Assembly: GCA_018700895.1 (NCBI GenBank)
Contig: JABIUV010000025.1
Coordinates: 1-56,074, forward strand
DNA: 56,074 bases
Direction: 5' to 3'
From: Bacteroidota bacterium
GTDB lineage: Bacteria; Bacteroidota; Bacteroidia; NS11-12g; UBA9320
Translations under genes and position numbers: made by a program
Shown: in pieces, positions 8,512-53,468 of the stretch
How positions within the stretch are numbered: position 1 is the stretch's first letter
How the letters are laid out: each line of letters begins with the position of its first letter
The notes under the pieces: model-generated
What the model was told of the DNA's origin: nothing
The model's database searches: none
What the model saw: the letters and a program-made list of their open reading frames with translations, nothing else

Positions 8512-9816
8512 ATGCAATACCGTGAGCAAATATTATTCATCATCGTACTTAGTGTAGCACTTTATTTCTTTGTTAAAAAGATACAAAAGATACGTCGCAA
8601 CATATTCTTAGGCAAGGACGAGACGATCAGTGACAACAAACCCGAACGCTGGAAAACGATGGCACGTGTAGCCTTAGGTCAAAGTAAGATGGTCGTAAGA
8701 CCTGTAGCGGGGATTATGCACATCATTATTTACGTAGGTTTTGTTCTTATTAACATCGAAGTGCTAGAGATACTGATTGACGGTATTTTCGGAACACATC
8801 GATTTCTGGCATTCTTGGGGCCAGTGTATAATGCGGCAATTGGTTTCTTTGAGATATTGGCGGCTTTGGTTTTTGTTGCTTGTGTGATATTTCTAGCCCG
8901 TCGGTTTATCGCTAAGATTCCACGTTTTCACTCACCTGAGATGAAAGGTTGGGCTACGGCAGATGCCACTTATATTCTCATTATAGAGATGGTACTTATG
9001 GTTGCTTTGCTCAAAATGAATGCGGTAGACCAAGTATTACAAGACATAAATGCTGACCATTATATAGCTGCAGGAAGTTTTCCTGTTTCGTATTACCTCA
9101 CAGGATTTTTTGAAGGATATTCTGAATCTACACTCGTTGTATTTGAGCGTGTGTTTTGGTGGTTCCACATATTAGGCATCTTATTTTTCTTGAACTATGT
9201 TCCGTACAGTAAGCATCTTCATATTTTCTTAGCTTTTCCCAATACGTGGTATAGCCGATTGCAGCCTGCTGGGGAGTTTGATAATATGCCAGAGATTACC
9301 AATGAGGTAAATCTAATGATGGACCCGAGCAAAGCGGACCCCAATATGCCACCACCCGAGAAATTTGGGGCAAATGACGTAACAGACCTAAGCTGGACTA
9401 GCTTACTAGGTGCCTACGCCTGCACCGAATGCGGACGATGCACCAGCTCGTGCCCCGCTAATATGACAGGCAAGAAACTAAGCCCACGTAAGATTATGAT
9501 GGACACCCGTGATAGAGCCGAGGAACTGGGTAAGGCCAAAGATGAAAATGGGGCAGATTACCACGATGGCAAGTCGCTCCATGACATGATTTCGCAAGAA
9601 GAACTGCTTGCATGTACTACGTGTAATGCGTGTGTGGAGGCTTGTCCTATCAATATTAATCCTTTAGAAATCATATACCAGATGCGTCAATATCAGACCT
9701 TAGAAAAATCGGCAATGCCACAAGAGTGGGCTATGATGAATAGCAATATTGAAAACAATCAGGCTCCTTGGCAATTTTCACCAAGTGATAGAGCCAATTG
9801 GACGAAGGAAATATAA
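8512..9816 (+). CDS. Membrane-bound Fe-S oxidoreductase with heterodisulfide-reductase-like 4Fe-4S domain
   Basis: Hydrophobic helices fill roughly residues 1-260 (one near the N-terminus, several between about 65 and 235). The cytoplasmic part carries two 4Fe-4S motifs, CTECGRCTSSCP (about residue 304) and CTTCNACVEACP (about 368). This layout is that of the membrane/HdrC-like component that passes electrons to a CCG-domain partner. The partner is at 12669, but an outer-membrane protein gene separates them. The electron donor and acceptor are not known from sequence. Confidence 0.88.
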   Translation: MQYREQILFIIVLSVALYFFVKKIQKIRRNIFLGKDETISDNKPERWKTMARVALGQSKMVVRPVAGIMHIIIYVGFVLINIEVLEILIDGIFGTHRFLAFLGPVYNAAIGFFEILAALVFVACVIFLARRFIAKIPRFHSPEMKGWATADATYILIIEMVLMVALLKMNAVDQVLQDINADHYIAAGSFPVSYYLTGFFEGYSESTLVVFERVFWWFHILGILFFLNYVPYSKHLHIFLAFPNTWYSRLQPAGEFDNMPEITNEVNLMMDPSKADPNMPPPEKFGANDVTDLSWTSLLGAYACTECGRCTSSCPANMTGKKLSPRKIMMDTRDRAEELGKAKDENGADYHDGKSLHDMISQEELLACTTCNACVEACPININPLEIIYQMRQYQTLEKSAMPQEWAMMNSNIENNQAPWQFSPSDRANWTKEI

Positions 9817-29703: not shown

Positions 29704-30405
29704 TTAGTGTATTTGTATTTTGATGGGTTGTCTTAGTCGTACCTTTACTTGTTTTCCATTGTTCAATCCAGGTTCCCAAGTAGGCATGGCCTCATAGGTC
29801 TCTCTAGCTTCACGTTCCAGTCCAAACCCTTTTTTGGAGCAATTAAGTATCTTAAAATCAGATAGTTTCCCTTTTTGGTCTATTACAAACTCCACGACAA
29901 CTTGTACATCTTCACCATAATCATACATAGCTTCGGGAATATCAAAGTTGTTGACAATAAATTTTCGAAGTTCGATTTCTCCTCCAGGAAACTCTGGCAT
30001 ACGGTCCACAAAATCGTGCACTATACTAGACGAATCTATTCTTTCTTTCACTACAATAGGGCCTATAGGTCTGGGCGGTGTGAATGACGGTGGAGCAATT
30101 ATTTCATCTTTGGTTTCGAATAATTCGTCTATTTCTTTGATCAAAGCTCGCGGGTCAAATATGGATGCCTCTATGATTTCTTTTCTCTTGGGAGGTTCAG
30201 GTTCTATTTCTGGTTGGGGCTCTATGATCTCACCAAGTACATAGGCTGTTTCTTCATCCCATGAAGGGTCTTGGGTATAGGGATTAGACAAATCTACACG
30301 GTACTCAAAGTTAAGCATGTAGTGTACGAATAGTAACGCTGCGATTAGTCCTATTTCGAATAGGATGATTCGGTCTGGTCTTTTTCTGTTGGTTTTAGGT
30401 TGCAT
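29704..30405 (-). CDS. TonB-family energy transducer
   Basis: A short cytoplasmic tail (MQPKTNRKRPDR) and one membrane helix (IILFEIGLIAALLFVHYML) lead to a Pro/Glu-rich periplasmic spacer (EIIEPQPEIEPEPPKRKEI). The TonB C-terminal domain follows (GEDVQVVVEFVIDQKGKLSDFKILN...MPTWEPGLNNGKQVKVRLRQPIKIQIH). It transmits proton-motive force to outer-membrane receptors. MQPKTN is preferred to an upstream start 20 codons earlier. ExbB/ExbD are not adjacent. Confidence 0.9.
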   Translation of the reverse strand: MQPKTNRKRPDRIILFEIGLIAALLFVHYMLNFEYRVDLSNPYTQDPSWDEETAYVLGEIIEPQPEIEPEPPKRKEIIEASIFDPRALIKEIDELFETKDEIIAPPSFTPPRPIGPIVVKERIDSSSIVHDFVDRMPEFPGGEIELRKFIVNNFDIPEAMYDYGEDVQVVVEFVIDQKGKLSDFKILNCSKKGFGLEREARETYEAMPTWEPGLNNGKQVKVRLRQPIKIQIH

Positions 30406-46307: not shown

Positions 46308-46381
46308 GGGCCTATAGCTCAGTTGGTTAGAGCACCTGACTCATAATCAGGTGGTCCCTGGTTCGAGTCCAGGTGGGCCCA
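46308..46381 (+). tRNA. tRNA with CAU anticodon (likely Ile2, possibly elongator Met)
   Basis: A 74-nt cloverleaf. The acceptor GGGCCTA/TGGGCCC pairs fully (one T-G), the D-arm is TAGCTCAGTTGGTTAGAGC, the anticodon stem is CCTGA/TCAGG around CTCATAA, and the T-stem is CCTGG/CCAGG. GACTCATAATC resembles the Ile2 tRNAs whose CAU is modified to lysidine. The discriminator is A and CCA is not encoded. The 5' part is ancestral; the 3' part was probably supplied by the integrated element. Confidence 0.93.
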
Positions 46382-46382
46382 C
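46314..46382 (+). repeat. Left direct repeat (attL core) of the tRNA island
   Basis: From atagctcag to gtgggcccac this sequence matches 53391-53458 apart from a one-base length difference in the D-loop and one T/C change in the T-loop. The flanks diverge at both ends, as expected for a site-specific integration target duplication. Confidence 0.85.
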
Positions 46383-46386
46383 TATC

Positions 46387-46420
46387 AAACCCTTTACTAG
46401 CAATAGTTTAGGGTTTTTTT
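46387..46420 (+). terminator. Terminator of the CAU tRNA
   Basis: AAACCCT and AGGGTTT form a stem followed by a run of T, five bases after the tRNA. It lies on the element side of the junction. Confidence 0.75.
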
Positions 46421-46433
46421 ATTTCAACTACCT

Positions 46434-46493
46434 GTGTTTTACACAATCTCAAATATACACTTTTCAAGTCTTTTCTGGCAGTACTGAGGCAGT
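46434..46493. promoter_or_regulatory. Left-end candidate integrase arm sites
   Basis: GTGTTTTACACA (46434-46445) is the exact inverted copy of TGTGTAAAACAC at 53370-53381 near the right end. CAGTACTGAGGCAGT (46479-46493) resembles CAGTGCTTAGACAGT at 53341-53355. Paired short repeats flanking both ends of an integrase-bounded element fit arm-type binding sites for the recombinase. Confidence 0.45.
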
Positions 46494-46544
46494 AAATTTT
46501 TGAGTCTGCTACTTTATTAAAAGGAATGTTAAATTTGGGGCTTA

Positions 46545-46613
46545 ATGATAACAGGAGAATTAAAATCACAAGTAGATAAAATCTGGGAAGCCTTTTGGAC
46601 AGTATATTGGTAA
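46545..46613 (+). pseudogene. N-terminal remnant of type I restriction methylase HsdM
   Basis: An ATG opens MITGELKSQVDKIWEAFWT, the conserved start of HsdM methyltransferase subunits, then runs into unrelated VYW and a stop. The usual GGISNP continuation is missing. Only about 19 codons remain. Confidence 0.65.
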
Positions 46614-46848
46614 CGTTAGATTACACTATTATAATCCTATGTTCTCTCAAAAAGATTGGTTAGGAGATCAGCAAATGGGTCAGGTAACCAAAGGTTATTT
46701 TATCAATCCTAATTTCTCTGCCAATCAAGATGGCTCTATCTCTTTATGGAATGTCTATAATCTTATGACCGAAGCCAATAAGAGCAGTTATATAGATAGG
46801 TTTATTCCCAAAGCTATGCAAATAGGTAATATGCTTAGTTTAGCATAA
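46590..46848 (+). pseudogene. C-terminal remnant of a DUF3871-family gene
   Basis: In the frame shifted from the hsdM remnant, GQYIGNVRLHYYNP is followed by LGDQQMGQVTKGYF, DGSISLWNVYNLMT and EANKSSYIDRF. That order is characteristic of the C-terminal part of DUF3871, a family carried on Bacteroidota mobile elements. An ATG at 46639 gives a 69-residue ORF, but the N-terminal two-thirds of the family is missing. Confidence 0.6.
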
Positions 46849-46943
46849 GTAATGTAGGGGAGTGTAAAAGCTCCTCTATTTTTAAAACGGAACAGAATTA
46901 TCTGGTTCATTAGATAGATAAGGTAATAGATCTATTTTTGTAG

Positions 46944-47324
46944 ATGTTCAAAATAATATTGCTCTCTATTATAGGTCTACTTCCTATAGAATTTACACCT
47001 TCTCAAGCCCTTTTTAATAAAGAGTGGAAAGCTAAAACACCACTAGTAATAGATGGGATAAAAATTAAGGGTTTTGAATTGTTTTTGCTAGAAGAGTACA
47101 ATAATGATTGGAACAGAGAAGGTGTGATGTTCAAGAGCATTTATAGAGGTGCTAGGCAGTTTCCTTCTTCATTTGATTATAAAATCACTCCAGATACTTT
47201 GAAATTAAAAGTTACGTTTTCAGCAGCAGGACTTGCTACTGGGGAAGTATACAACATACCTTATACTCTAAACAAAAAGCAACTTACCTTAAAATATTAT
47301 GGACAAGAGAGTACTTATAAGTAA
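46944..47324 (+). CDS. Small secreted hypothetical protein, island cargo
   Basis: A 126-residue protein with a signal peptide (MFKIILLSIIGLLPIEFTPSQA). The mature part has repeated short beta-type stretches (TPLVIDGIKIKGFELFLL, YKITPDTLKLKVTFSAA, YTLNKKQLTLKYYGQ). I do not recognise the family. Codon usage is strongly AT-biased like the rest of the island. No partner gene is close; the next cargo gene is about 200 bp away. Confidence 0.65.
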   Translation: MFKIILLSIIGLLPIEFTPSQALFNKEWKAKTPLVIDGIKIKGFELFLLEEYNNDWNREGVMFKSIYRGARQFPSSFDYKITPDTLKLKVTFSAAGLATGEVYNIPYTLNKKQLTLKYYGQESTYK

Positions 47325-47520
47325 ATCAAACACACTTTGCTCATTGACTCCTGAAGTGTTGTTATCACAATCAGCTCAAAAGTTACAGTGCATCTCAAAA
47401 TAGGTTTATTAACGCGTATGTGGATAGCCATATACCCTTAAATCATTGAAGGGACTTTGCCTTTAAAAATCTGAGCACATTATATATAGATATAGCTAAC
47501 GTTTATTTAAATTTGAAGAT

Positions 47521-48612
47521 ATGAAAAAGACATTCTTAGTCTCAGCTTTGCTAGTTATTCCTTTTTATTTTTATGGTCAAAGTAAAAAAGAACTTATAAA
47601 AGCAAATAATGATTTGACATATAAATTCAATGTCCTTTTAGAACAAAACAATGAACTCAATGAAAAATACAATGCATTAAAAGAAAAACACAGTGTTTCT
47701 TTTGACACTCCAGAAAACTATGCAAAGTCTATTTTTAAATTACTAAAAAGCAAAAACAAGAATGAAGCCTCTAAACTATTGATGAGTATAGATGATTCTA
47801 AATTTTTCCCTGACAAATTAAGTAAAGCTTTCTCAGAGGCAGCAGATGAAGATAGTATTTCTGTTAGTGACTTTATTCAAAATTGGAATGATGACTCTAA
47901 AAAAACTTTTGATGAGGCATATTATGGAGGACTTAATATGGGTATCAACTGGCAAAGTGCTGTTTTTACAAAAGCAGAATTTATAATTGAATATGATGCA
48001 AAAATAGATACATATGTAATAGATGGTTATTTGGTGTTTTTTAAATCTTCAAACAAAGACTATAGCTTTAGAATTAAAAGAGCTTTCATCATTAATGATA
48101 AACCCAACAATTGGAGAATAAGAGGTCCATATGACCTTCAAGCTCAAAAGTTGGAAAAAGAAAAAAGAGAAAAAGAAAGACTGGAAAGAGTAAAGCAAAA
48201 AGAAATTGAACTTAAAAACAAACCCTATACTCCTTGGAAACTATATGTTGGAGGTACAAACTGGTCATATAGCCCAGACAATAAAGAAACGTTCACAGAG
48301 TTCAGATGCAAAATCACTAACAATACAGAACATGTTGTAAATAGAGTAAGATTCAGAGTTTCTATTTATACCGGAGCAGCCTACAAAGGTGGGACTAAAG
48401 TGTTTTCAAAGACATATGATTTAAATAGGTATTCCCCAAAAAGTAGTATCTGCTATAGTTGCACTCAAGTTTTGAGTCTTCAACCAGGGGATATGCAAGA
48501 AATTCAAATTCCTGAGCTTAAAGATTTCTTTTTAGGAGAGGATACTTCGGATGATAATAAATGGTATGCTAAATATGAAATTTTAGACGTTTTCCCAAAG
48601 CATAATAAGTAA
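47521..48612 (+). CDS. Secreted hypothetical protein with coiled coil and beta-sandwich, island cargo
   Basis: A 363-residue protein with a signal peptide (MKKTFLVSALLVIPFYFYGQ). A short coiled coil (ELIKANNDLTYKFNVLLEQNNELNEKY in part, about 22-60) precedes a helical domain (PENYAKSIFKLLKSKNKNEASKLLMSI). A mixed domain around 130-205 is followed by a charged helix (KLEKEKREKERLERVKQKEIEL). The C-terminal beta domain of about 120 residues (FRCKITNNTEHVVNRVRFRVSIY) resembles FxLYD-like sandwich domains. The function is unknown. Its stop lies one base from the stop of an integrase remnant on the other strand. Confidence 0.75.
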   Translation: MKKTFLVSALLVIPFYFYGQSKKELIKANNDLTYKFNVLLEQNNELNEKYNALKEKHSVSFDTPENYAKSIFKLLKSKNKNEASKLLMSIDDSKFFPDKLSKAFSEAADEDSISVSDFIQNWNDDSKKTFDEAYYGGLNMGINWQSAVFTKAEFIIEYDAKIDTYVIDGYLVFFKSSNKDYSFRIKRAFIINDKPNNWRIRGPYDLQAQKLEKEKREKERLERVKQKEIELKNKPYTPWKLYVGGTNWSYSPDNKETFTEFRCKITNNTEHVVNRVRFRVSIYTGAAYKGGTKVFSKTYDLNRYSPKSSICYSCTQVLSLQPGDMQEIQIPELKDFFLGEDTSDDNKWYAKYEILDVFPKHNK

Positions 48613-48613
48613 A

Positions 48614-48695
48614 CTAAACCATAGGCGTATCTTCTTATTTTAATTCAGCAATGTGCCAAGGTAAGTCAAATAAGCTACTTTTATAGGTGAAAATG
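48614..48695 (-). pseudogene. Integrase 3'-end remnant 1
   Basis: The plus strand reads ctaaaccataggcgtatctt, close to the antisense end of the intact integrase gene (ctaaaccataggcatatcct at 52274). Translated leftward, the C-terminus is DLPWHIAEL.[stop].EDTPMV, against GLELAELSEEDMPMV in the intact protein. An in-frame stop and poor match farther upstream show it is an old, decayed remnant. Confidence 0.6.
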
Positions 48696-48777
48696 CGCTT
48701 TATAAATTTAAGATATGTGAAATTCATTTCTAAATGTCTCATCCACCTACTTAAGAAGCCTATCAGTAAGAAATATT

Positions 48778-49323
48778 TTAAAAGAACAAGGGTTTCAACT
48801 TTACTCTACCATCAGTGTGAAGTGTGTAGGTTTGATTTATTTCCAATGAGTCAATATCAATTGGACCCTGGCCACTGAGTGATACAAGCCTCTCAAAGAG
48901 TAGATTTCTTTCTTGGGTATTATTTGTAATGAATTCTAATCCATTGATAAAAGAGTGTTGAATAACCCATCCATTTTTAAATCTTATCTCAAACCAATCT
49001 GCTTTATAATTTTTACTGGATAAGTAAGTGAGTAACTCAAGTGTGTTGTCAAAGGACAATCTCATTTTATGCTGAGGATATTGTTTCTTCTTCTTTCTGT
49101 TTTCAGCACCTTTTTTCCTGTAACATAATTCCATTTTAAGAATGCTGAGGTGTTTAAAATGAATGAGCATAGATATTCTATCAATACTGTCATTGAATTG
49201 AATGATAAAGCTCCTATGTGTACCCCCATCCTGCAATTGGTTAGGATTATCCATTTCACTTATCCATGGAGAATGCCTCAGTTCTAATGATCTAATTAAT
49301 ATGTATTCCTGGCTATCCTTCAT
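48778..49323 (-). CDS. Hypothetical cytoplasmic protein, island cargo
   Basis: A 181-residue basic protein without signal peptide. Visible stretches are SFIIQFNDSIDRISMLIHFKHLSILKMEL, a Lys/Arg-rich run (YRKKGAENRKKKKQYPQH), and LELLTYLSSKNYKADWFEIRFKNGWVIQHSFINGLEF. No known motif is recognised. It overlaps the lipoprotein gene upstream by 11 nt, so the two are translated together. The pair runs opposite to the other cargo genes and sits where the rest of integrase remnant 1 would have been. Confidence 0.65.
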   Translation of the reverse strand: MKDSQEYILIRSLELRHSPWISEMDNPNQLQDGGTHRSFIIQFNDSIDRISMLIHFKHLSILKMELCYRKKGAENRKKKKQYPQHKMRLSFDNTLELLTYLSSKNYKADWFEIRFKNGWVIQHSFINGLEFITNNTQERNLLFERLVSLSGQGPIDIDSLEINQTYTLHTDGRVKLKPLFF

Positions 49324-50014
49324 CTAACTTAAATTCATATTTTTTCTTACCAGTCAATATTTCCAGAGATGGTATGTTATCTGACATATCTAGCAGCTTA
49401 TAAGTGGAGTCAACAGTAAGTATGACTTTATTTTCCTCCAAACTGAATTCATTTTTTTTATTCAATAGCCAATAGATCTCTTCCTTTTTGAATTTAACAT
49501 TTCTCCTTTGTTCAACTCTGGCTTCACGTATCCAGGTTTTTACCTTATCATTCAATGGATTAATCTTTATATTATTTGATCTAATTAAATCCCCTGTCTC
49601 AGAATTGTATGGCCCTTCTTTACCTGTATATAGCTGCTTAAAAAAAAGTTGCTTCATGAAACTTGAATCATTCAATGACCACAAGTAAAATGTCTGCCAA
49701 TTAGTACCTCCTCCATTGATTAAGCAGGAAGTAAATAAATACTCTCTAGAACCGCATTTCAGAATCTTATAATCAGGAGTTCTTCCATAGGTGCAATCAT
49801 AAATTGTATCTATCTGATCACCATTTGATACAGCTAATCCTCCCTGATCACCTCTGCCGCCCCAAGATGATTCAATAATGGGAGTTATAGTGATGCGTTT
49901 TCTCCCTGCTGTAACTGTCACTTCTTTTTCTGACGTATACGTTTCTACATTGTGACTATTTGAACAGCCAAAAAATAGTGGAATAATGAAGAGAAAGTAA
50001 AGTTTATTTTGCAT
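49313..50014 (-). CDS. Lipoprotein, island cargo
   Basis: A 233-residue lipoprotein; the signal ends with LFIIPLFFGC (Cys about residue 17). The mature part contains EKEVTVTAGRKRITITPIIESSWGGRGDQGGLAVSNGDQIDTIYDCTYG and a predicted beta-rich fold ending LDMSDNIPSLEILTGKKKYEF. No family is recognised. It is encoded first in a two-gene leftward operon with the 181-residue protein. Confidence 0.72.
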   Translation of the reverse strand: MQNKLYFLFIIPLFFGCSNSHNVETYTSEKEVTVTAGRKRITITPIIESSWGGRGDQGGLAVSNGDQIDTIYDCTYGRTPDYKILKCGSREYLFTSCLINGGGTNWQTFYLWSLNDSSFMKQLFFKQLYTGKEGPYNSETGDLIRSNNIKINPLNDKVKTWIREARVEQRRNVKFKKEEIYWLLNKKNEFSLEENKVILTVDSTYKLLDMSDNIPSLEILTGKKKYEFKLDEG

Positions 50015-50351
50015 ATAGAACTGAGACAGTAAAGATAATATTTTATGGGATAAGCTGTTTTCTAGATAAAATAGAAATGCTCATAAATTTCTATGAGAGC
50101 CTAAAACAGAAAGTTCATAAGTTAGAAATCTCCCTTAAAATCAGATAGCTAACATTTAGTATCTATTAACCCTTCCAGATCATCTCTTTAGCTCTAAGAT
50201 GGATTAATCAATATGTTGCTTTTAGACAAATCAGGGTTTATGATACTTTTCTAATATTAGTTCTTACTATGTTTTATTTGGCTATCTAACCTTTTCCATA
50301 GCGTTATTTTAGATGAAAATAGTTTATTTTGGAAACTTAAATATTTACAAT
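50015..50351. other. AT-rich intergenic stretch with an arm-like repeat
   Basis: This gap lies between two divergent lipoprotein genes. It has ACTGAGACAGTAAAG at 50020-50034, resembling the repeats near both island ends (46479 and 53341), and a small hairpin CTCATA/TATGAG at 50080-50097. Divergent promoters presumably lie here but no clear TAnnTTTG element stands out. No ORF is supported. Confidence 0.5.
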
Positions 50352-51035
50352 ATGGTTAATCTGAGTTTATCACCAAAAAGCAAATACTCTTTTGCTTTAG
50401 TTTTTCTTTTTCTTTTTCTTGGATGTGCAAATGATGATAATGAGGTTGAATTAAATAATCAAAGGATTCAATATTCCTTTGAGATAAAATTTGGTGGAGA
50501 GACTCATAAAATAGTAGGAGAGTTTTCAGATTATTTTGATTTCTCTCAATCAACAATTCAAAACCATTCATTAGCTAGTTTAAGTCAGGGCATATTAGGT
50601 TTAGGTTTTCAACTTAATGATATTAGTGCAACAGATTATATTTCTGGTCAGCCATTATATTTTAATCTAAGAATAGAAAATCCACAAATTGGAAATAACA
50701 ATATTGGAGAGCTACAAATTAATTCAAGACCTTATACAGATGATTATGCAACTGCTAATGGAATACGTACTACTGCCTTTTGGAGTTCAGAGTATGTTGA
50801 AAATACTTCAATGGAATATACAGATGCTTATAGAGATAACTTAATTGGTAAATTAACTAAGATTAGTTTGAGCAATCTAGGAAAAAGTTCATCTATAGGT
50901 ACTGCTGATGGTGATAACGTACAAGGCTCATATGAAGGTGTGTTATATTACAGACAACGAGGGCAAACTACAGAACAATTATTTAATGTACCTGTCCCTA
51001 TAAAAATCACATTCAGTGCTGTAAGAATGAACTAA
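50352..51035 (+). CDS. Lipoprotein, island cargo
   Basis: From the chosen ATG (MVNLSLSPKSKY) the signal FALVFLFLFLGC leads to lipidated Cys at about residue 25, then an acidic NDDNEVE tether. The mature domain of about 200 residues looks all-beta (YSFEIKFGGETHKIVGEFSDYF; LYFNLRIENPQIGNNNIGELQIN; VPVPIKITFSAVRMN). No family is recognised. An in-frame ATG 13 codons upstream (50313) is possible but would give an atypical signal. The stop is six bases from integrase remnant 2 on the opposite strand. Confidence 0.75.
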   Translation: MVNLSLSPKSKYSFALVFLFLFLGCANDDNEVELNNQRIQYSFEIKFGGETHKIVGEFSDYFDFSQSTIQNHSLASLSQGILGLGFQLNDISATDYISGQPLYFNLRIENPQIGNNNIGELQINSRPYTDDYATANGIRTTAFWSSEYVENTSMEYTDAYRDNLIGKLTKISLSNLGKSSSIGTADGDNVQGSYEGVLYYRQRGQTTEQLFNVPVPIKITFSAVRMN

Positions 51036-51041
51036 AGCAAA

Positions 51042-51120
51042 CTAAAACATAGGCATATCCTCTTCTTCTAGTTCAGCTATTTCTAAGCCACGCAAGTAGG
51101 TAAGAGATACATTTACAGTT
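51042..51120 (-). pseudogene. Integrase 3'-end remnant 2
   Basis: Translated leftward this reads VNVSLTYLRGLEIAEL then EEEDMPMF and a stop. It matches the intact integrase C-terminus (INVSLTYLRGLELAEL, SEEDMPMV), including the catalytic tyrosine. Most base differences are synonymous. Upstream on the same strand the match ends abruptly with a stop codon, so only about the last 25 codons remain. Confidence 0.85.
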
Positions 51121-51192
51121 CAAACCAATTAGAACAGAAATTTCACTATTTCATTGAATTATTTTTATTATTTTTGAATAAAATCAAACGTT

Positions 51193-51477
51193 ATGAAAAA
51201 GTACTTTAATCATATTGCCAAGGAGTTCTTAAATTATGGAGTAGGTTGGATATGTGGACTTATTTCAGTTCAATTAGTTCTATTATTTTTTGAAGAAAAA
51301 GGAATTATGAACCTTTGGGGTTTTTGGTCAGACAAAATGGTAGTTGAAAAAACTACTCTTTCAGTAATAGAGTGGCTTACTTCTGGTATTATTGGATATG
51401 TGGTAATGCAACAAGTTAATAAAGTTATAACTAAAGTTACGTTATTCAACTCAAATGACTTAGCAACCAAAGATTAA
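51193..51477 (+). CDS. Small membrane protein, island cargo
   Basis: A 94-residue protein with two hydrophobic segments (YGVGWICGLISVQLVLLFF at about 15-35 and WLTSGIIGYVVMQQVNKVI at about 60-80) and short charged ends. No family is recognised. It precedes the 254-residue membrane protein by 28 nt on the same strand, so the two are probably co-expressed. Confidence 0.68.
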   Translation: MKKYFNHIAKEFLNYGVGWICGLISVQLVLLFFEEKGIMNLWGFWSDKMVVEKTTLSVIEWLTSGIIGYVVMQQVNKVITKVTLFNSNDLATKD

Positions 51478-51505
51478 CTTTTGTTTCTAACCAATAAATT
51501 GTAAA

Positions 51506-52270
51506 ATGTCTATTTGGAAAAAATTTTTAGAAAAAAAATCAGCTGAAGCTCAGTCTCGTGGCTTCACTTATATGACTTCAGTTTTTGACTCAACAATTGG
51601 TAAAAGAAGAGGAGGAGGTGACGGTTTTTATAAGATGATTCCCAAACTTATTGGAGTTATAATAATTGGGTTTGTATTCATTACAATTTTTAAGGGGGTG
51701 GTAGAGTATCTTCCTTATATATTTGGCTTACTACTTGTATTAATCATAATTTTAAGAAAGCAATTAAAAGCTATCGTTAGCAAAAAAATTAACATAGGAG
51801 GCATCAAAGAAAATATTCCTAATCCTATTCAAAAATTAAAACAAGAATTAGTTGACGATAAAGGAAATTATGCAAAGGGTGTGGTAATTAGTGCAAGATT
51901 AGAAGAGATTCCAAAAAAAGATAGATTTACTGTTAAAGGACCCAGAAAAGGGCTTAAAACAACTTATATTGAACAAATTGAAGAAATTGTTGTAACTGTA
52001 ACAGTCCAAAAAGGAAAACTTGAAATTGGTGATGCCTTAAAAGCACATTATTCAATATGGGGATGGCACGATTGTAAGGTAAGTCGTATATATAATGAAA
52101 ATGGTGAGAAAGTAAAATTTGCTGAAGCGGGTCAAACTGTATCTATAACCGGATTCTATAAACTTTACAGCAATAAAAATATTAACATTGACAAAAAGCC
52201 TATTGATGGAAAGAAATTTGAAGCTTATGATGATACCAACTTTGATGGTGACGTTGATGTTGACTTATAA
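51506..52270 (+). CDS. Membrane-anchored protein with IF2/EF-Tu domain-2-like barrel, island cargo
   Basis: A 254-residue protein. The basic N-terminus is followed by two adjacent membrane helices (LIGVIIIGFVFITIFKGVVEY and YIFGLLLVLIIIL, about 48-90). The rest is soluble. At about 170-225, QKGKLEIGDALKAHYSIWGW, CKVSRIYNENGEKVKFAEAG and QTVSITGF follow the pattern of the second beta-barrel domain of translation GTPases (G.L..GD ... V...ydE.G.kV..A.p...V.i.G), but no GTPase domain is present. The acidic C-terminus ends DGDVDVDL. The stop is three bases from the convergent integrase stop. Confidence 0.72.
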   Translation: MSIWKKFLEKKSAEAQSRGFTYMTSVFDSTIGKRRGGGDGFYKMIPKLIGVIIIGFVFITIFKGVVEYLPYIFGLLLVLIIILRKQLKAIVSKKINIGGIKENIPNPIQKLKQELVDDKGNYAKGVVISARLEEIPKKDRFTVKGPRKGLKTTYIEQIEEIVVTVTVQKGKLEIGDALKAHYSIWGWHDCKVSRIYNENGEKVKFAEAGQTVSITGFYKLYSNKNINIDKKPIDGKKFEAYDDTNFDGDVDVDL

Positions 52271-52273
52271 AAC

Positions 52274-53335
52274 CTAAACCATAGGCATATCCTCTTCACT
52301 TAATTCAGCTAACTCTAATCCCCTTAAGTAGGTTAGACTTACATTTATAGATGAATGCCCCATAGCTTTTTGTAGCTTGGTAATAGAGCCCGTTCTCTTA
52401 AAGATATCAATGGCACCTGAGTGTCTGAATGAGTACAAGGTTTGCCCTTCCTTCAAAACATTACTTTGTTTCTTATATCTGCTCCATAGGGTACTAAAAT
52501 AGTCAGGATTCCTACCACACAAATCCCCAGTAAAGATATTATCATTTAAACCTTTTGGATTTAAATAGGGTTTGATAAAGCCTGGAACTGGTACAATTCT
52601 ATTTCTTCCTGACTTATTTCTAAACCCTGAAAGTGTAATAAAGCTTAAGTCCTTTGAGAAATCACCCCAAGTCAATTCCCTCACCTCTCTGTGAGGCCTG
52701 AGTAAGCAGCCATAAGTTAATAAACAACATAGGTGAAGGTGTTTATTAAAGGTTTTAACATCCTCTAATATAGTAGCAATATCATCAAAGGGTTTATGCA
52801 TTATAGCCTTAGCTTTCTTACTTTTTATCTCAGTCATCGGATTACTCTCCATTCCTAAGGATACAGCTTCATTAATAAGCACATTTATGTGCCTTCTAAG
52901 GGTGTTATGAGAAACTCCAGAGCAATACCTTGCAAGAATATTTTTAAGGCTTTTAACGTCAAGTTTTGAAGCACCTATTTCTTGCTCTAAACAGTTAAAA
53001 CTAAACTGAAGCATAGACTTATACTTGTCAGAGTAATCACCAGTTAGTTTTGATTCCAAGGCTTGTTTGATACAATCAAGATCTGAGAGTTTACCACATA
53101 CCAAATTGTTAGATCTATGTGATAATAAAACACCCCCATTTAATAGGTAGCTGTAGATCTCAGCTGCTAGGACTTTAGCTATGGATAATCTTTGGTCAAT
53201 AGGATAAGAGTTGGGATCTGTGGTTGAGTTGATTCTCTTCCCGTTATAAAGCCTATATCTCTTATTATTAATGTAGAAGGATACAAATACTTTTTTTAAA
53301 GAATCAGTGTGAACTTTAGGAAATTGTAATTTCAT
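52274..53335 (-). CDS. Tyrosine recombinase (integrase)
   Basis: A 353-residue site-specific recombinase. The N-terminal half holds a SAM-like core-binding domain (YSDKYKSMLQFSFNCLEQEIG ... HNTLRRHINVLINEAVSLGM). The catalytic domain shows Arg I in YGCLLRPHREVRELTWGDF, the beta Lys in RNKSGRNRIVPVP, Arg II in TLYSFRHSGA (R304, with Tyr in place of the usual first His), His327 in MGHSS and the nucleophile Tyr336 in SLTYLRG. Its start lies 55 bp from the tRNA repeat, the position expected for the integrase of a tRNA island. It should mediate integration and, with help, excision at the CAU tRNA. Confidence 0.93.
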   Translation of the reverse strand: MKLQFPKVHTDSLKKVFVSFYINNKRYRLYNGKRINSTTDPNSYPIDQRLSIAKVLAAEIYSYLLNGGVLLSHRSNNLVCGKLSDLDCIKQALESKLTGDYSDKYKSMLQFSFNCLEQEIGASKLDVKSLKNILARYCSGVSHNTLRRHINVLINEAVSLGMESNPMTEIKSKKAKAIMHKPFDDIATILEDVKTFNKHLHLCCLLTYGCLLRPHREVRELTWGDFSKDLSFITLSGFRNKSGRNRIVPVPGFIKPYLNPKGLNDNIFTGDLCGRNPDYFSTLWSRYKKQSNVLKEGQTLYSFRHSGAIDIFKRTGSITKLQKAMGHSSINVSLTYLRGLELAELSEEDMPMV

Positions 53336-53340
53336 TAGGC

Positions 53341-53381
53341 AGTGCTTAGACAGTTAAACTTATTTTAATGTGTAAAACACT
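53341..53381. promoter_or_regulatory. Right-end candidate arm sites and integrase promoter region
   Basis: CAGTGCTTAGACAGT (53341-53355) and TGTGTAAAACAC (53370-53381) are the counterparts of the left-end repeats at 46479-46493 (direct) and 46434-46445 (inverted). They lie between the integrase start and the tRNA core, where arm sites and integrase expression signals would overlap. Confidence 0.45.
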
Positions 53382-53390
53382 GGTTTTCAA

Positions 53391-53458
53391 TAGCTCAGTT
53401 GGTTAGAGCACCTGACTCATAATCAGGTGGTCCCTGGTCCGAGTCCAGGTGGGCCCAC
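53391..53458 (+). pseudogene. Displaced CAU tRNA copy (attR core)
   Basis: It is nearly identical to the tRNA at 46308 from the D-arm to the 3' end, here followed by an encoded CCA. The 5' acceptor strand is replaced by TTTTCAA, which cannot pair with TGGGCCC. The D-loop lacks one T and the T-loop has C for T. It is therefore the displaced end of the original gene rather than a second working tRNA. Confidence 0.82.
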
Positions 53459-53468
53459 CAACTAAAAT

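Follow-up and report, generated by a model that had tools for sequence, protein, structure and literature searches.

In many marine Bacteroidota, single genes appear to stack one behind another at the 3' end of a tyrosine integrase gene, in what looks like a gene-capture system that is built unlike the integron. The window, the whole 56,074-nt stretch of DNA analysed here, holds a confirmed instance of this widespread pattern. Between an intact tRNA-Met gene and a 5'-truncated tRNA-Met copy lies an island (46308-53460) with one integrase gene and two extra copies of its 3' end (Table 1). The arrangement is that of a tRNA-targeting element, with an integrase beside a split or duplicated tRNA gene (46308-53465): the integrase start adjoins the truncated tRNA, whose first bases are replaced by element sequence, and the integrase 3' end faces the cargo.

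Table 1 Features of the island in the window
Feature	Position	Strand	Remarks
tRNA-Met(CAU), intact	46308..46382	+	ARAGORN; far island end, restored target gene; repeat (76 nt) common to the right end
Distal interval	46383..48613	+	ORFs 46944-47324 and 47521-48612; the stop of the second lies 1 nt from site 2
Site 2 (remnant 3), decayed tail copy	48614..48695	-	Core 48614-48631; E 5e-5
Interval between sites 1 and 2	48696..51041	+	ORF 50313-51035 (240 aa, +); ORFs 49313-50014 and 48778-49323 (-)
Site 1 (remnant 2), a tail copy at the edge of cassette 1	51042..51123	-	Core 51042-51059
Cassette 1, between sites 0 and 1	51124..52273	+	ORFs 51193-51477 (94 aa) and 51506-52270 (254 aa)
Tyrosine integrase gene, 353 aa	52274..53335	-	Pfam PF00589, E 3.4e-7; 3' end = array site 0
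Site 0, integrase 3' tail	52274..52345	-	Core GATATGCCTATGGTTTAG at 52274-52291
TGTGTAAAACACTGGT	53369..53384		Inverted copy of 46430-46445; candidate integrase binding site near both ends
tRNA-Met copy without 5' acceptor strand	53390..53465	+	Integrase-side island end; 95% identity to 46314-46389

The likeness between the tail copies far exceeds chance. Against the integrase end (52271-52355), remnant 2 (51039-51123) shows 79% identity over 85 nt and remnant 3 (48611-48649) 85% over 39 nt, beyond which a weaker likeness extends to about 48695. As the original prediction held, each of the three integrase 3' ends lies just past the stop codon of a plus-strand cargo gene, with gaps from cargo stop to integrase-stop position of 3 nt (52270/52274), 6 nt (51035/51042) and 1 nt (48612/48614). 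Its reading that remnant 2 differs from the integrase mostly at synonymous sites also stands (7 synonymous and 4 nonsynonymous codon differences in the last 24 codons), whereas remnant 3 contains an in-frame stop. The further claim that remnant 2 descends from a separate, once-functional integrase survives in part: coding ancestry is supported, but nothing requires that more than the tail was ever present. When remnant 2 was searched as DNA against the whole genome, it matched the end of the window integrase (E 1.7e-14) and that of a second integrase on contig C27 (E 2.7e-15), and no other match came close to these two.

Searching relatives with the integrase returned, in several genomes belonging to the same genus and family, matches to the tail alone, and a profile of the last 46 residues, run against contigs of many genomes, identified 78 loci, mostly in marine Flavobacteriales and Flavobacteriaceae. 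Profile searches were positive for 12 of the 108 genomes searched in the order; in the family and genus to which a Polaribacter record (G108) belongs, 32 of 397 and 32 of 167 genomes matched. A nucleotide tail profile built from integrase ends yielded 383 distinct sites spread over 144 loci: full integrase genes account for 58, partial ones for 45, and the other 280 are internal. These counts depend on the profile, which will miss decayed sites; the final threshold retained 376. The loci are drawn largely from metagenome-assembled or single-cell genomes, with each species represented once. Many of the other integrases in the survey adjoin tRNA fragments, which are of many types. In 28 arrays there is no integrase within the stretch examined around them, and these resemble the CALIN of integrons.

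The arrays share a regular architecture. Among the 376 sites, neighbours less than 4 kb apart lie on the same strand in 214 cases and on opposite strands in 6, with a median spacing of 737 nt; at least three sites occur in 59 loci and at least five in 21, and the largest locus has 12. Within -15 to +12 nt of the integrase-stop position, a convergent ORF (50 aa or longer) stops at 46 of the 101 integrase ends and at 124 of the 264 internal sites, which is 47% overall against 3.5% of random positions. Tails are widespread and cargo stops often lie near them, so that the check under which the original prediction would have failed, with tails missing elsewhere or cargo joined at random distances, turned out in its favour. 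Internal cassettes (n = 196) have a median length of 629 nt; 135 contain exactly one ORF of at least 60 aa, and the longest ORF is directed towards the integrase in 159 of 191. The cargo is diverse, with 91 proteins falling into 64 Pfam families that include SnoaL-like, CMD, beta-lactamase-fold, lectin, GH16 and restriction-type domains; there are also a few PADLOC matches. On the far side of the tail, 55 of 252 internal sites have a TAnnTTTG motif (a Bacteroidota -7-like box) that abuts the tail at a constant distance, a density about 10 times that found elsewhere. A start codon often follows soon after this box, so that many cassettes are cut down to a few bases at both ends.

These intervals move as units. 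When cassettes were clustered by nucleotide similarity, 36 families recurred across different loci, and the successor differed in 19. Full-length copies match over 674/674 nt at 90% identity (F17), 773/773 nt at 96% (F89), 433/434 nt at 98% (F66) and 391/391 nt at 97% (F131), and copies of F73 recur in three loci over 189-192 nt at 96-99% identity. The same two cassettes stand in reversed order in loci L087 and L091, as also happens between L115 and L140. As a control for the tails, two cassettes were searched against 167 genomes of the genus: close cassette copies are bordered by a tail at either end, but nine homologues outside arrays (67-74% identity) all lack one, and most of these nine matches end inside the cassette. 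We are close to certain that the intervals are mobile cassettes in an array, with fixed ends and changing neighbours. In the window, the interval between sites 1 and 2 probably comprises more than one cassette, with one tail lost, because 48981-49342 is shared with an array in another genome (G002) at 91% identity.

The alignment of the window integrase covered 58 full-length relatives. Among 54 full integrases, shared sequence ends in the last codons: a near-invariant GATATGCC is followed by a few variable codons and then by unrelated cargo. Varied cargo is joined at one place, just after GATATGCC, and the integrase stays intact; some integrases gain extra residues and their stop codon from the adjoining cargo. 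Internal tails reach 60-72 nt in the main class and 30-48 nt in a second group and exceed 84 nt in about one tenth, so that their length is sharply limited, near 72-84 nt. Synonymous-site conservation in the integrase gene peaks at the core codon Asp349 (GAT in 57 of 58 genes), and codon conservation excess is about 0.28 in the last 25 codons versus 0.11 in the rest of the gene; the remainder of the tail is under mild synonymous constraint.

Comparisons across junctions show where the tail parts from its neighbours. In the 45 clusters that share a cargo 3' end but not a tail, identity remains at the cargo's level as far as position 0 and nears background within the tail; in the 29 that share a 5' flank, it falls close to background from about -66. 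Breaks lie mostly at -24 to +3 in same-cargo junctions and mostly upstream of -60 in same-5'-flank junctions, in estimates that assume a common background and have wide intervals in some pairs. Breakpoints do not fall at one nucleotide: some best-fit positions lie between the two clusters, and some breaks fall at -33 to -72, which homologous recombination would give too. A single fixed crossover, with the tail moving either with the cargo or with the 5' flank, does not hold generally, and an early reading in which the tail moves with the 5' flank was dropped. Unequal tail lengths in L201 and L106 were also considered as variable joining, and a deletion between TTTAA repeats in the tail explains them equally well. 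On these alignments the tail behaves as a module that is loosely linked to either neighbour. It strictly follows neither of them and would therefore have been exchanged or re-copied. Among 79 internal tails, 8 match the resident integrase best, against 0.8 expected, and rank-1 tails are only modestly closer to their own integrase (0.764 vs 0.712); the average association is weak.

Together, the data require recombination that is focused on the integrase 3' end, keeps the gene intact, proceeds in one orientation and leaves a copy of the tail. One option in the original prediction, cargo exchange at this very end, has gained strong support from tail-bounded, co-oriented and reshuffled cassettes in 144 loci. 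We favour a reading in which cassettes are inserted at the integrase 3' end with the integrase as catalyst, leaving a 25-75 nt tail copy, and give it a probability of roughly 0.6. Catalysis by the integrase would be the most economical account. This tyrosine recombinase lies beside tRNA fragments of many types; presumably it also inserts the whole island into tRNA genes. Against its role as catalyst weigh the breaks at -33 to -72, the modest closeness of rank-1 tails to their own integrase, the mild synonymous constraint on the remainder of the tail and the 28 arrays with no integrase in the stretch examined; neither an excision product nor a circular cassette was seen. Circular cassettes would be inserted by the integrase at the tail core, each insertion displacing the older cassette outward while a tail copy stays between old and new. 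The copy may be brought with the cassette or copied from the resident integrase. On the fuller proposal given below, the integrase end would be regenerated at each insertion and duplicated as the boundary of the older cassette, much like the first repeat of a CRISPR array. CRISPR spacer acquisition places new units beside one fixed end and duplicates the repeat there, and insertion of this kind would yield the same unlinked-repeat pattern; unlike in CRISPR, the units here are genes of 0.2-2 kb and the repeats are integrase coding ends, and nothing points to Cas1/Cas2. The fuller proposal, integron-independent gene capture by a tRNA-targeting tyrosine recombinase, with insertion at the 3' end of the recombinase gene itself and duplication of that end each time, is more tentative, and we place it slightly short of even odds.

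The main rival to integrase catalysis is RecA-type homologous recombination between tail repeats, for example after natural transformation, with the integrase acting in tRNA integration and its 3' end passive. Such recombination would fit the scatter of breakpoints over the tail in part of the pairs, the mosaic nature of tails tied to neither neighbour, and an 18-nt core that is the longest block common to nearly all tails. However, tails of 25-75 nt with a mean identity of about 72% are short for RecA, breakpoints cluster at both tail ends instead of spreading evenly, and the joining of many unrelated genes at one place, with a stop codon a few nucleotides away, is left unexplained; we consider this rival unlikely, though serious. 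Tails might instead be promoter or terminator parts that spread with genes by unrelated means, without any recombination system at the integrase end. The TAnnTTTG box beside internal tails is what such parts would show, but tails strictly accompany neither neighbouring gene and are missing from the nine homologues outside arrays, which makes this explanation very improbable.

The original prediction had offered, as its other option, stepwise accretion, in which new islands enter at the same tRNA and older integrases are deleted down to the part adjacent to the cargo. Decayed or truncated integrases do exist (G011 and G044), and some array heads retain just 40-175 integrase codons. Yet an integrase remnant extends beyond the tail in only 7 of 196 internal cassettes and a tRNA or tRNA fragment in none, tail lengths are tightly limited, and identical cassettes recur with fixed ends beside different neighbours, so we give whole-island accretion very little credence. 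An integron in the true sense, having attC sites and an IntI that has diverged, is the least probable account of all. It would share the outline of a tyrosine recombinase with tandem, mostly single-ORF cassettes of diverse function. However, the score with TIGR02249 is 20.8 bits where the cut-off is 265 (at most 22 bits in seven integrases), the sites show no excess attC-like single-strand folding on either strand (z about -0.1 to -0.2; mean z -0.08 and -0.24 at internal sites, no lower than in flanks), genes are read towards the integrase and not away from it, and the site is the coding end of the integrase itself. Integron identity is thus ruled out on the features tested, the IntI profile and the attC fold.

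In textbooks, the dedicated bacterial system for gathering single-gene cassettes is the integron. The arrays described here share with integrons a tyrosine recombinase and tandem, compact, mobile cassettes, mostly of a single gene (135/196), varied in function and set in one orientation (214 vs 6). They differ in their non-IntI enzyme, in a site at the integrase 3' end, in the lack of a hairpin, in genes directed towards the integrase and in their residence in tRNA islands (integron features and likely role after PMC8618304). The system works like an integron and is not one. Tycheposons and other tRNA-targeting elements, as far as the consulted part of PMC10872708 describes them, likewise combine a tyrosine recombinase beside a split tRNA gene with variable cargo and also occur in aquatic hosts with small genomes; that part mentions no cassette array bounded by integrase tails. 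The archaeal SSV-type (suicidal) integrases recombine at a site within their own gene, as here, but integration splits and inactivates them, whereas in the present arrays the C-terminal codons are restored, leaving a whole gene; self-disrupting integrases are called exclusive to archaea in a review (PMC8371274). No such splitting was found among the 58 full-length integrase genes, many of which lie beside tRNA fragments and cassettes. We know of no earlier bacterial case of a recombination site inside a recombinase gene that leaves the gene intact, so that the present integrase, if our reading is correct, would be the first. The original prediction knew of no described system with such a layout, and we likewise found none: in the open literature, preprints and most subscription papers aside, a search on cassettes of non-IntI recombinases in Bacteroidota turned up no account of tail-bounded arrays. 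If correct, the proposal would give the abundant, streamlined marine Bacteroidota a second, unrelated cassette system and would explain the trade of single genes among small genomes. The integrase tail would become a searchable marker for the boundaries of large numbers of mobile genes, and the birth of cassettes would become testable by comparing array copies with close relatives outside arrays.

Some further features of the window island and its genome are recorded here. The TGTGTAAAACACTGGT pair near both island ends is a possible integrase binding site. The 254-aa ORF of cassette 1 has a weak match to an EF-G domain 2-like region. Contig C49 of the same genome carries a near-identical integrase end at a tRNA-Asn gene. 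As a likeness alone, outside the argument above, the core resembles a tRNA D-arm and the tail resembles the integrase leader (AAGTTTAAC).

At 28 of the loci fetched from marine Bacteroidota genomes (for example L190, L189, L212 and L231), the array contains at least two sites, or copies of the integrase gene 3' end, and no integrase lies within the fetched stretch. These tail-bounded arrays resemble the CALINs of integrons, which are cassette arrays without a nearby integrase. On the complete chromosome of a Polaribacter record (G108, contig C1) there are 19 matches overall, and arrays or sites occur at four or more separate places. Homologues of cassette genes are also located outside arrays, where they have no tails (L246-L251 and L254-L256), and these are possible source genes giving birth to cassettes.

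In one lineage, with PEL(N/T)E-type integrase ends (L142, L149, L151 and L153), internal tails are much shorter, at ~36 nt, suggesting that the needed site may be short.

Immediately 5' of the integrase start codon, most loci show direct repeats of the type CTGNCA..CTGNCA, and most also show tRNA fragments of several types 5' of the start, cut in the D-arm or anticodon region. At L162, an internal tail continues into integrase-leader-like sequence AAATGTCTGCCAAATGTCTGCC rather than into cargo.

In the genome of the window, contig C49 ends (at 29754) in sequence identical to the leader and first 21 codons of the window integrase, and a 5'-truncated tRNA-Asn is joined to this integrase start. 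This genome contains either another copy of the window integrase or an alternative location for it. Close to the end of its contig C27, past the second integrase, lies a ~150-nt tandem repeat that codes for a repeated peptide.

Coordinates of the features described
Feature	Location	Coordinates	Strand
Array or site	G108, C1	104-125 kb	
Array or site	G108, C1	271-279 kb	
Array or site	G108, C1	903-914 kb	
Array or site	G108, C1	1495 kb	
Internal tail with leader-like sequence	L162	6847	-
tRNA-Asn/integrase start	L014 (C49)	9569-9755	
Tandem repeat	L013 (C27)	8560-8822
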